A model generated the notes under the pieces. That model was not told where the DNA came from, did not search any database, and worked only from the letters and a program-made list of their open reading frames with translations. Shown here in pieces: positions 2,783-6,746 of a DNA stretch of 23,063 nt. Source of the stretch: a virus; IMG/VR virus record IMGVR_UViG_3300025632_000087, positions 1-23,063 of that record; one strand, 5' to 3'. Made by a program: the position numbers and the translations under genes. How positions within the stretch are numbered: the stretch's first letter is position 1; each line of letters starts with the position of its first letter.

Positions 2783-4072
2783 TTACGTGTACTGTTCTTT
2801 GTAAGAACTGGTTAAAGGTTGACTCCAGTCAGACTTAACAGACAGTGTGTCCATACCTACAGCTAAGTACCTAAAGGCGTCTGCTGCGTGTGATGACCAG
2901 TCGTGTAATGGTTTTTCTACATATACGTTTAGCTTATCGTTAAACTGTCTTCTATAGTTTCTTAAGCATTCTAGTCCATACTTAGTAGTATCTTCATTAA
3001 AGAAAGTATTTGGCAGCATTCGTCTCACTGCCTGTATACCGTCTTCTACAGGTAGTTTTGGTGCAATTGTTATTTCAAGCCCTGCTGATTCTAACAATTC
3101 TTGCCTAGATTTACCCGTCCCTAACTCTCTTACCACAACGTCATGCGGCAATATATGTTCGTAACCTTCGTAACCGTTATCTTTTATCCAACCAACGTAA
3201 TCATCAAGTGATTTGCCGTGGTCTTCGTAGTAATCTAAAATTCTCACTTCACCACCTATTGTTTGTACTACCCATATTGAGGTAGAATCAGACATACCAA
3301 GATCCCATGCTGTATAACACTTGCATAGCTCATCGTGTGGTATGCTTCGTATGTGGTTTTCTTTATCTATGTTAGCAATAATCTCACCATAATAAGAACC
3401 AACTATAGGTGAGTCAAATGAACATTCAAATTCTTGCTCGTACTTACTATCTCCCATTTCTTGTTTAGCCGCAAGTAATTCATTAGCATCTAGTAAGTTT
3501 GTTTGTGACGCTTTAAATTCAAGCAACTTCCACTCTTTCTGCTTGCCGGAGTCAGCACGATCTCTAAGCTCTTTAAAATGGTTGGCTCCTTTAGGCGTTC
3601 CAATAAATAAAGCGTAGCCAATACGATCGGCCAAAGCGGGTCGTACAACTTCCGTAAAAAGAGTAGGAGATACGTCCCCAATTTCGTCGATGACAATTCC
3701 GTCCAGGTATATACCTCGAAGTGAGTCAGGATTATCAGCGCCATAGAGATTAATACGCCTACCCATGAAATCAACACGAAGCTCCGCAACATTAGCAACC
3801 CCTCCTAAAGGTCTTGTGTACTCTAACAAATATTCCCACGCTATACGTTTAGCCTGAGAGTAAGTTGGAGCAACATAAGCAAATCTTGGATTTTTTTTAT
3901 CACATTTAAGTGCAGAATGTATTAGTTGGTTAATAGCTGATACGGTTTTTCCCATCCTACGATGTGCTACAACAACGTTAAAACGGTTATTTTTTACTGA
4001 TTGGTGTATTAGTTTTTGTGGCTCTCTTGGTCTGTACCCTGTGTCTAGTACATTTTCTAGTTCATCACTCAT
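2783..4072 (-). CDS. terL: Terminase large subunit
   Basis: This is the DNA packaging motor ATPase and headful/cos nuclease. The N-terminal ATPase has a Walker A-like AHRRMGKT (about residues 36-43), a Walker B region LDGIVIDEIGD (about 124-134) and a coupling segment at FIGTPKGANHF. The C-terminal RNase H-like nuclease starts at TAWDLGMSDSTSIW, where the Asp is the first metal ligand, and ends with HAADAFRYLAVG carrying the last acidic residues. Its length of 429 aa is normal. The start overlaps the end of the small terminase gene by 8 nt, so the two are co-translated. The terminase holoenzyme docks on the portal encoded just downstream. Confidence 0.96.
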   Translation of the reverse strand: MSDELENVLDTGYRPREPQKLIHQSVKNNRFNVVVAHRRMGKTVSAINQLIHSALKCDKKNPRFAYVAPTYSQAKRIAWEYLLEYTRPLGGVANVAELRVDFMGRRINLYGADNPDSLRGIYLDGIVIDEIGDVSPTLFTEVVRPALADRIGYALFIGTPKGANHFKELRDRADSGKQKEWKLLEFKASQTNLLDANELLAAKQEMGDSKYEQEFECSFDSPIVGSYYGEIIANIDKENHIRSIPHDELCKCYTAWDLGMSDSTSIWVVQTIGGEVRILDYYEDHGKSLDDYVGWIKDNGYEGYEHILPHDVVVRELGTGKSRQELLESAGLEITIAPKLPVEDGIQAVRRMLPNTFFNEDTTKYGLECLRNYRRQFNDKLNVYVEKPLHDWSSHAADAFRYLAVGMDTLSVKSDWSQPLTSSYKEQYT

Positions 4073-4363: not shown

Positions 4364-4421
4364 GGGTGAGAGGAGCGAGCTCCTCTAAATCGCTACGGTA
4401 GGAGAAACCAAAGCGTCACCC
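4364..4421 (-). ncRNA. Predicted three-way-junction structured RNA before terS
   Basis: Read on the minus strand, 58 nt fold by eye into a closed three-way junction. P1 pairs GGGTG (4421-4417) with CACCC (4368-4364). P2 pairs CGCTTTGGT (4415-4407) with ACCGTAGCG (4399-4391), giving 7 Watson-Crick pairs, one T-G pair and one T-T mismatch, with loop TTCTCCT. P3 pairs AGAGGAG (4386-4380) with CTCCTCT (4375-4369) across loop CTCG and abuts P1. Single-stranded links are just A and ATTT. The P2 loop can pair with AGGAG in P3 or AGGA in the terS ribosome site. There is no U-tract, so it is not an intrinsic terminator. It starts 8 nt after the pqqA stop. It could be a cis-regulatory RNA, an mRNA processing/stability element, or a packaging (pac/cos) DNA element. 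Confidence 0.55.
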
Positions 4422-4429
4422 GAATGAAA

Positions 4430-4501
4430 TTACTTATTCATTACATACATTGTAACTTCAAAGCCAAATCTCATTTCTGTTGCTTGAGGTTTTGTCCACA
4501 T
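4430..4501 (-). CDS. pqqA: PqqA-like PQQ precursor peptide, 23 aa
   Basis: PqqA is the ribosomal peptide from which pyrroloquinoline quinone is made: PqqE (with PqqD) cross-links its Glu and Tyr, which become the cofactor skeleton. The 23-residue product begins MWTKPQATEMR and contains GFEVTMY. It keeps W2, K4, P5, R11, G13, E15, V16, T17, Y19 and N22 at the same positions as the 23-aa Klebsiella-type PqqA as I recall it; Glu15 and Tyr19 are the cross-linked pair. AAGGA lies 9 nt upstream of the ATG. No pqqB, C, D or E occurs in the window, so it would depend on host enzymes. It lies between DUF3310 and terS, at the border of the DNA-metabolism and packaging modules. Confidence 0.9.
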   Translation of the reverse strand: MWTKPQATEMRFGFEVTMYVMNK

Positions 4502-4555
4502 AGTAGTATTCCTTATAATATGTTACTGAAATACAAATATCGTAAGGGAAGTTTC

Positions 4556-4807
4556 CTAAGCCTTACTTGATTGCGCTTGTACTAGCCAATTCATATACAC
4601 TAATGCTTTCTCGTAGTCTGAATTAGCTGAGTCTTTATGATCTGCTCTGCTTAAGTATTTGATAACGTTACCTTTTAAGTAACCTACAAGCTCTTGTTTT
4701 GATAGTTTAGACTCGATAAAGTCTATTGTTTCGATGCCACCAACCTCGTAATGAGATACTTTTGGTCGCTTAAACCTAACAAGCCTTGCATTAATTTCTT
4801 TGTCCAT
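4556..4807 (-). CDS. DUF3310-family protein (83 aa)
   Basis: The segment HYEVGGIETIDFIESKL, followed by the YLKGNVIKYLSRA and DYEKALVYMNWL motifs, matches the DUF3310 family, common in phages near nucleotide-metabolism genes; its biochemical role is unsettled. The frame extends upstream into the ribonucleotide reductase gene. I take the ATG at 4807 because GGAGAG lies 6-7 nt before it and the family begins near there. It follows the reductase gene with a hairpin (4843-4867) and an AT-rich palindrome (4820-4834) in between, so it may have its own initiation or processing signal. Confidence 0.85.
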   Translation of the reverse strand: MDKEINARLVRFKRPKVSHYEVGGIETIDFIESKLSKQELVGYLKGNVIKYLSRADHKDSANSDYEKALVYMNWLVQAQSSKA

Positions 4808-4880: not shown

Positions 4881-6746
4881 TTATTGTATCTCACAGCTAT
4901 TACCTGTGCAGGCAAGCGTTTGAGCACTCGTTGTGTTATCATCTTCTTCTAAAAACTCTGTAAAATCAATGTGTTGCGGAGTTTTAGACTTTAACTCTTC
5001 GTAAGTTGCTTCGTCGCAGTCTTGGTACGGAGCTTGAACATAAGAATGGTCAGAGTGAGGTAAGAAACTAATACCGCTAATCTCATCAAAGTACTTATAA
5101 ACCCAAGCGCCAACATCCATCCATTCATGGTCTTTAACAGATATGGTTACTGAAGGCTTATGTTCACACCAATGTCGTTGGTACACTAACCAATTTTCAA
5201 GCTGCTCTAATGCCGTCATGTCATTTCTTGTTATGGCATCTTTAGGAGCTTTCATTGGAAAACTAAAAACAGCGGTAGACTCAGGTCTAAATTGCTCGTC
5301 TTCTACTTGGACGCCTTTATCTTTGAGAAAGCTGTACAAAGGGTCTTTTTTGTCAATGCGTATAGTTCTGACATAATAATCATTATGCCTAGCATGGATC
5401 CCACTAGCAGAATTAACGAGCTGGCTAACAGTTCCACTAGGCTTGACACAAGTAATCGCGGCTGATACTGGTATCTCCAAGATTTTAGCGTATTTTTCAT
5501 TTGTGTTACGTGCGGCATATCTTAACTCCTCTAAAAATTTAGGATCAGGACTTGATGTTATCTTAGCGTCCATGATACCAGTTAATGAAACACCAAGCAA
5601 TCTTTCTTCGGCTGTATTTTTTAACCACTCTTGTGATAAAAATTTAAAGTCTATCAAAGTTGATTGAAATGTTCCTAATATTGTAGCAAGTTCTACTTTT
5701 CTTTTTAACGTTTGTTTTGTATCGCCATTTCTTACAACAACCTCTGTCAAGTTACAAAATTGTTTGTCACGTAATATAATTTCTGAGCATGGGTTAGTTC
5801 CATAGTTTAGACTTTTATCACGTCGACCCCATTTAGCAGCTTGGTCTTGACTTGCTACCCTATTAAATATCCCACGCTCACCTGACTTAGATTTAACTAA
5901 AGATAACCACTCTTCCATGTAAACCTCAATATCAGGTTTTTCAGTGTAAGCTACAGAATTGTTAGCCAAGCCTCTCCAAGCAAAATCGTTGTACCATGCG
6001 CCCATTTTTGCCTCACGCATACGCTTATCAGTTAAGTTAGATAAAGATATTAACGCAGACCTTCTTACGCCGCCAACAACAACAATCTCACCTATCATAC
6101 ACATAATGTCGTGTACTTCAAGTGATGTTAATTTTCGACCTTTTGCACCAATAAAGAGATCGGTAACAAATTTAAATAACCTTTTTAATGGTTCTGGCCC
6201 AGATGCTCTACCACCAAATATTTTTAGTCTTGCACCAGCTGGCCTGATATGTGAGTAATCTATACTTGGTATATCACCATCCCAAAGTGATGACATTAGT
6301 TTTTTAAATGCTTTTGCCCAACCAAGTTTACTATCACCAACGACTATAATGTCGTCACAATTTTCAATATCTTCTGGCACTGGAGGTAATTGACTTACCT
6401 CTTGTCTTTCACAACTAAAACCCACTCCAGTTCCGTTCATTAGTATATACAATGCTTCTGAAAAAGCTCTTTTGTTATTTACGGCTAAGTAACTGCAGTT
6501 GTACGCAGCAATATTATCACGCTCACATGCCTCGCCAGCAGACATCATAAGTCTCATGGATGGCATTACCTCTAAGTTCAAAATAGCTTTGTGCAGCTCT
6601 TGTATGTCCTTTTGTAGTTTTGGCTGCGTTTTAGCTATAAAACCTGTTAGTCGAGTTACTGTTTCTTCCCATGTTTCTCTGCGTTTAAGCTCTGGTAAGT
6701 ATCTAGCGTACCTACTACTAGCAATTATCTCTTGATATAGTTCCAT
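4881..6746 (-). CDS. nrdJ: Class II (cobalamin-dependent) ribonucleotide reductase
   Basis: This 621-aa enzyme reduces ribonucleotides to deoxyribonucleotides using adenosylcobalamin and resembles the monomeric triphosphate reductase of Lactobacillus. Visible landmarks: Cys84 in AAYNCSYLAV, the active-site loop NPCSEI with Asn318, Cys320 (thiyl radical) and Glu322, Cys331 in QFCNLTE (disulfide partner of Cys84), the KPSGTVSQL phosphate loop, and the C-terminal CTGNSC pair (Cys613/Cys618) that shuttles electrons from thioredoxin. It is about 120 aa shorter than the 739-aa bacterial enzyme, with losses spread over three intervals between landmarks. GGAG lies 4-5 nt before the ATG. It supplies dNTPs for replication and needs host or environmental B12. 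Confidence 0.93.
   Translation of the reverse strand: MELYQEIIASSRYARYLPELKRRETWEETVTRLTGFIAKTQPKLQKDIQELHKAILNLEVMPSMRLMMSAGEACERDNIAAYNCSYLAVNNKRAFSEALYILMNGTGVGFSCERQEVSQLPPVPEDIENCDDIIVVGDSKLGWAKAFKKLMSSLWDGDIPSIDYSHIRPAGARLKIFGGRASGPEPLKRLFKFVTDLFIGAKGRKLTSLEVHDIMCMIGEIVVVGGVRRSALISLSNLTDKRMREAKMGAWYNDFAWRGLANNSVAYTEKPDIEVYMEEWLSLVKSKSGERGIFNRVASQDQAAKWGRRDKSLNYGTNPCSEIILRDKQFCNLTEVVVRNGDTKQTLKRKVELATILGTFQSTLIDFKFLSQEWLKNTAEERLLGVSLTGIMDAKITSSPDPKFLEELRYAARNTNEKYAKILEIPVSAAITCVKPSGTVSQLVNSASGIHARHNDYYVRTIRIDKKDPLYSFLKDKGVQVEDEQFRPESTAVFSFPMKAPKDAITRNDMTALEQLENWLVYQRHWCEHKPSVTISVKDHEWMDVGAWVYKYFDEISGISFLPHSDHSYVQAPYQDCDEATYEELKSKTPQHIDFTEFLEEDDNTTSAQTLACTGNSCEIQ

Follow-up and report, generated by a model that had tools for sequence, protein, structure and literature searches.

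The window analyzed here is an entire IMG/VR record of 23,063 bases and is probably a phage fragment. It harbors, on the minus strand at 4501-4430, an open reading frame (ORF) of 23 codons plus stop (ATG to TAA) that encodes the peptide MWTKPQATEMRFGFEVTMYVMNK. An initial annotation had placed a 23-codon PqqA gene at 4430-4501; this location is right, and only the strand had not been stated. The PqqA-like residues that it listed (W2, K4, P5, R11, G13, E15, V16, T17, Y19 and N22) are all exact, and the AAGGA motif it reported upstream is present as a Shine-Dalgarno-like sequence at 4514-4510 (minus strand), 8 nt ahead of the ATG. The peptide has the form of PqqA, i.e., a short, free-standing ORF (about 22-29 amino acids) with start codon and ribosome-binding site, and contains the Glu-x3-Tyr pair (E15, Y19) that is cross-linked by PqqE in PqqA. 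Profile searches, suggested earlier as a check, returned matches well above cut-off for both Pfam PqqA PF08042 (E 2.7e-11, 43.6 bits, cut-off 21.1) and the NCBIfam equivalog TIGR02107 (E 3.9e-10, 39.3 bits, cut-off 20), and by these two models MWTKPQATEMRFGFEVTMYVMNK is a clear PqqA. A chance ORF was rejected on several counts: a PqqA-motif DNA pattern matches once in the window and never in 100 dinucleotide shuffles, the motif search gave no match in 300 mononucleotide shuffles, and both PqqA models score above cut-off.

The gene lies in a true phage setting, between ribonucleotide reductase and terminase/portal genes, rather than in host contamination. The ribonucleotide reductase (6746-4881, minus strand) is nearest to those of the OM43 phages MEP402/MEP401 (79-80%), and directly upstream of pqqA is an ORF (4807-4556, minus strand) with matches to PHROG "nucleotide kinase" families. 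Downstream follow a 93-aa ORF (4346-4065, minus strand), which had no match in family searches and is, by its position, a candidate small terminase subunit, the terminase large subunit gene terL (4072-2783, minus strand; nearest to the OM43 phage Venkman, 65%) and the portal gene (2478-274), encoded on the same minus strand as pqqA. An inverted repeat GAGGAG..CTCCTC is found at 4370-4410 (minus strand) between pqqA and the 93-aa ORF, and the wider segment is similar in L005/L006. Further genes of the window code for a thymidylate synthase-like protein, a YqaJ recombinase, a DnaB-like helicase and an M15 peptidase. No other pqq gene was detected in the window, as had been noted before: the PqqE model was negative and tblastn with pqqB-E yielded noise only.

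Conservation of pqqA in the phage lineage

After Venkman, the closest terminases are those of a spring-water phage genome (MW202481, 64.5%) and, at a distance, of pelagiphages (~45%). Since the terminase is nearest to Venkman and the ribonucleotide reductase nearest to MEP402/MEP401, the host is presumably a marine member of the Methylophilaceae (OM43), and a podovirus-like phage of OM43 methylotrophs is the best explanation of the window. A terminase search of IMG/VR returned 63 loci, and the PqqA model was run on 39 of the corresponding records. A search at the same place in related phage contigs had been proposed earlier; pqqA was present there in 15/15 terminase relatives (≥67% identity) whose contig covers the spot, a count outside which fall L014 and L032, whose contigs start inside terL or too near it. 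By the same model, pqqA is absent from all 22 distant, pelagiphage-like relatives (terminase ≤51%).

Within the lineage, pqqA forms an aligned island surrounded by flanking DNA that does not align. Comparison of ten lineages yielded a pS of 0.48 and a pN of 0.09 (pN/pS 0.19); the gene is under purifying selection. Loss of E15 and Y19 in relatives had been named as an observation that would speak against PqqA function, and all members of the window clade keep both residues. In addition, two scans of IMG/VR for PqqA-like frames with a first base other than G at codon 15 or other than T at codon 19 found none, which covers two classes of change and is blind to replacements such as Glu to Asp/Gly/Ala and Tyr to Phe/Cys/Ser. 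A control frame with codon 15 left free matched 96 of 120 loci (among the matches listed), all with G first.

Distribution of pqqA across methylophages

A tblastn search of the PqqA peptide against 50,697 phage records identified nine named methylophage genomes, namely Venkman, MEP301, P19250A, MEP401, MEP402 and four Melnitz genomes, which include sipho-, podo- and T4-like types. Other matches were limited to the environmental phage MW202481 and two Acinetobacter contigs. Judged by these matches, all cultured methylotroph viruses with a matched genome bear pqqA, nearly always unannotated; the isolate count leaves aside MEP431-434, Venkman EXVC038S, HIM624-A, MG-MTP1 and RSA-MFP1, which appear as taxonomy names. 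As had been anticipated for a gene of this length, gene callers miss it: no feature is annotated at pqqA in Venkman, MEP301, P19250A, MEP401 and MEP402, and in MW202481 and Melnitz the ORF annotated in its place is one on the opposite strand. In one Melnitz genome (L190), the end of pqqA (2995-3066, opposite the annotated ORF) adjoins a tRNA-Leu gene.

The one Acinetobacter contig of the two that was examined in detail (phage MD-2021a, L191, CAKLQF020000010.1) was rejected as a phage carrier of pqqA. It harbors pqqA to pqqE in order beside ppk and, because this is a full bacterial pqq operon, looks like host chromosome, i.e., bacterial contamination. For the window and the isolates, contamination as the source of pqqA was rejected.

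A degenerate DNA pattern recovered at least 120 stretches from IMG/VR, each an ATG-started ORF of 23-25 codons. The gene is found in at least about 158 IMG/VR contigs, almost always unannotated, and in at least 164 virus loci altogether, which encode 77 distinct PqqA peptides and fall into 34 groups when two shared proteins are required. Most contigs sampled from the other groups code for phage portal, T4-type major head, terminase or UvsX proteins, and nearly every listed phage copy has an AGG core at the Shine-Dalgarno place. A subgroup of phage peptides (L073, L089, L096, L100, L139, L179) ends in MYFKTR or similar and is not of the Methylophilaceae type; the host of these phages is probably another PQQ-making group. 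A tryptophan halogenase-like protein is additionally encoded at 5422-6453 of one pqqA-bearing phage contig (L128, a 47 kb record).

The genomic position of pqqA varies. In MEP402 it is the first gene on the minus-strand structural side, and it is oriented against its neighbors in Venkman and MEP301. Moreover, DNA matching between MEP301 and P19250A, MEP401, MEP402 or MW202481 is confined to pqqA itself. These differing positions and the restricted match of MEP301 point to pqqA having been acquired or moved several times among methylophages. Universality of the gene in methylophages was rejected, as it is patchy in MEP401-type phages: only 3/18 records of MEP402 terminase relatives contain pqqA, and it is missing from a 42.8 kb record with 95% terminase identity.

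A leader RNA, phage-specific in the loci searched, is proposed upstream of pqqA, consisting of a covarying hairpin and a helix over the ribosome-binding site. The conserved hairpin (4533-4570, minus strand) begins where the upstream gene ends, with an outer stem formed by 4566-4561 and 4547-4542. In an alignment of seven sequences, 8/8 pairs form in every sequence (100% of cells), compared with 41-54% of cells in slid-partner controls, and 5/8 pairs are changed on both sides. The modeled element ends 32-43 nt ahead of the pqqA Trp codon in the lineage. The corresponding covariance model (R1) matches exclusively upstream of pqqA, namely in members of the lineage and in L183 and L127, two pqqA-bearing contigs outside it (the full set is the window, L005, L008, L012, L013, L015-L017, L127 and L183), with no other match in 832 kb of phage loci. 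It had none in 207 kb of host loci, so that a hairpin common to host pqqA was discarded, and the hairpin has no match in Rfam. A box, ATTTGTAT (including TTTGTAT; 4531-4538, minus strand), is complementary to the ribosome-binding region, and in this helix (helix 3) 87.5% of cells pair, with little covariation. We therefore regard a second helix that would cover the ribosome-binding site as tentative. An ordinary terminator was dismissed, as no terminator-like site was found; the hairpin may act as a regulator, a stabilizer or a weak terminator.

Host PQQ pathway and the predicted role of the phage peptide

The pathway into which the initial annotation let the phage peptide feed is present in the host family. 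Of the refuting observations that it had named, none of those open to computation was made. In the family of the OM43 isolate LSUCC0135 (Methylophilaceae), pqqA was identified in 100/100 genomes, with 1-12 copies each, and PqqE scored above cut-off in 14/14 Methylophilaceae-type genomes. A PQQ alcohol dehydrogenase model was above cut-off in 12 of 14 host genomes and partial in two, and matches to pqqB, C, D and E were found among host loci, the host being assigned for these maturation enzymes by nearest isolates. Host genomes also bear orphan pqqA copies away from pqqB-E. LSUCC0135 (G040) itself harbors twelve scattered copies in a 2.1 Mb genome, compared with 2-3 in most family genomes of 1.2-1.3 Mb. 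Many pqqA genes next to a single set of the other pathway genes have been described for Methylophilaceae (PMC4109929), and PqqA availability is given as rate-determining in Methylovorus MP688 in a passage of PMC11317620 that cites Ge 2015.

Phages carrying methanol dehydrogenase or further pqq genes were not found where this was checked: methanol dehydrogenase is absent from 56/56 pqqA-bearing phage records, pqqB-E from 212/212 phage loci, and PqqE from the phage records tested. Matches of the PqqE model in two large records reached 22-28 bits against a cut-off of 381 and were taken as other radical-SAM proteins.

We consider it likely that a working phage pqqA adds dosage of a consumed precursor and thereby sustains PQQ and host methanol oxidation during infection. 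Infected cells would produce the 23-residue peptide; host PqqD would bind it and host PqqE would cross-link it at Glu15-Tyr19, after which the remaining host enzymes would finish PQQ. The phage copy would act by dosage because each PqqA is spent on one PQQ and because the host family multiplies only pqqA. In this way, even with host genes shut off, the gene could keep or raise the supply of PQQ to host methanol dehydrogenase, and energy and C1 carbon would continue to flow into phage production, to the benefit of the phage. This reading is consistent with a gene that is maintained by selection, tied to methylophages and absent from distant relatives including pelagiphages. Speaking against it, MEP402 relatives with near-identical terminase can be without pqqA. 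Furthermore, since the hosts are already multi-copy, one extra pqqA must be strongly expressed to matter, and a promoter for pqqA was looked for and not found. Holo-methanol dehydrogenase from before infection may also suffice. A more far-reaching proposal, that precursor-peptide supply is a repeatedly acquired methylophage trait across tail types and that the leader of the window lineage senses PQQ or a methanol-metabolism signal, appears doubtful to us.

Other roles were weighed against precursor dosage. PQQ raised by the phage might serve lanthanide handling, redox protection or the blocking of an outer-membrane PQQ receptor against other phages; a role of PqqA in lanthanide uptake is speculated upon in PMC11317620, and a report on PqqU, a PQQ importer of Gram-negative bacteria, mentions phage 25 times (PMC12124388). 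We consider such uses unlikely in these hosts, as methanol oxidation is the simplest match to the host-family link. The peptide could also be a decoy that occupies PqqD/PqqE unconverted, so that PQQ would fall or SAM and iron-sulfur enzymes would become available to the phage. Differences between phage and host PqqA, which are located mainly in residues 3-8 and at the C-terminus, would be compatible with a decoy, but phage copies retain the Glu and Tyr used for cross-linking, which a decoy would not need, and certain phage peptides do not differ at all from host peptides; we judge a decoy to be very improbable.

Least credible of all is a host pqqA carried by chance and functionless for the phage. 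Its patchiness in MEP401-type phages and the many host copies available for pick-up would be expected of such a passenger, yet the gene is under purifying selection (pN/pS 0.19) and fixed in the window lineage, is found at several genome positions and in several phage groups unrelated to one another, and keeps its ribosome-binding sites. Precursor dosage thus remains our preferred reading, and since cultured phage-host pairs exist (Venkman-H5P1, MEP301, MEP401/402, Melnitz, P19250A), it is directly testable.

Significance and relation to known systems

OM43 and Methylopumilus are abundant methanol oxidizers in coastal and lake waters. Should pqqA be present in most of their phages, viral infection would touch the cofactor of methanol oxidation at large scale. 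The gene is routinely missed by annotation, and this suggests that precursor peptides as a class escape surveys of auxiliary metabolic genes that apply the usual limits on gene length.

Methylophilaceae host PqqA (PF08042/TIGR02107) resembles phage PqqA in length and in the core EMRFGFEVTMY, and four phage peptides are identical to host peptides. Unlike host pqqA, the window copy is phage-encoded, lies by terminase genes and is preceded by a leader hairpin that was not found at host copies.

The initial annotation had left open whether a phage PqqA had been described before. One has been published: the Lake Baikal phage population VP_266, a predicted Methylophilaceae phage of T4-like type, encodes PqqA together with methanol dehydrogenase (Coutinho 2020, PMC7678222), so the kind of gene was known. 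VP_266 and the window phage share a phage-borne PqqA and the methylotroph-phage setting; in contrast to VP_266, the window derives from a putative small podovirus-like phage and, over its 23 kb, encodes neither methanol dehydrogenase nor any further pqq gene. pqqA is also among the viral genes listed for reservoir sediments (PMC13188868). Further reports of phage PqqA were not found in the open-access literature, and in the accessible papers on the matched methylophages other than P19250A, pqq is nowhere named as a gene of the phage. What appears to be new is the breadth over cultured methylophages, together with the evidence for selection and the leader RNA.

Among auxiliary metabolic genes, cyanophage psbA keeps a short-lived component of host energy metabolism supplied during infection. 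Phage pqqA would likewise supply a host energy component, with the difference that its product is a consumed substrate and not an enzyme or structural subunit.
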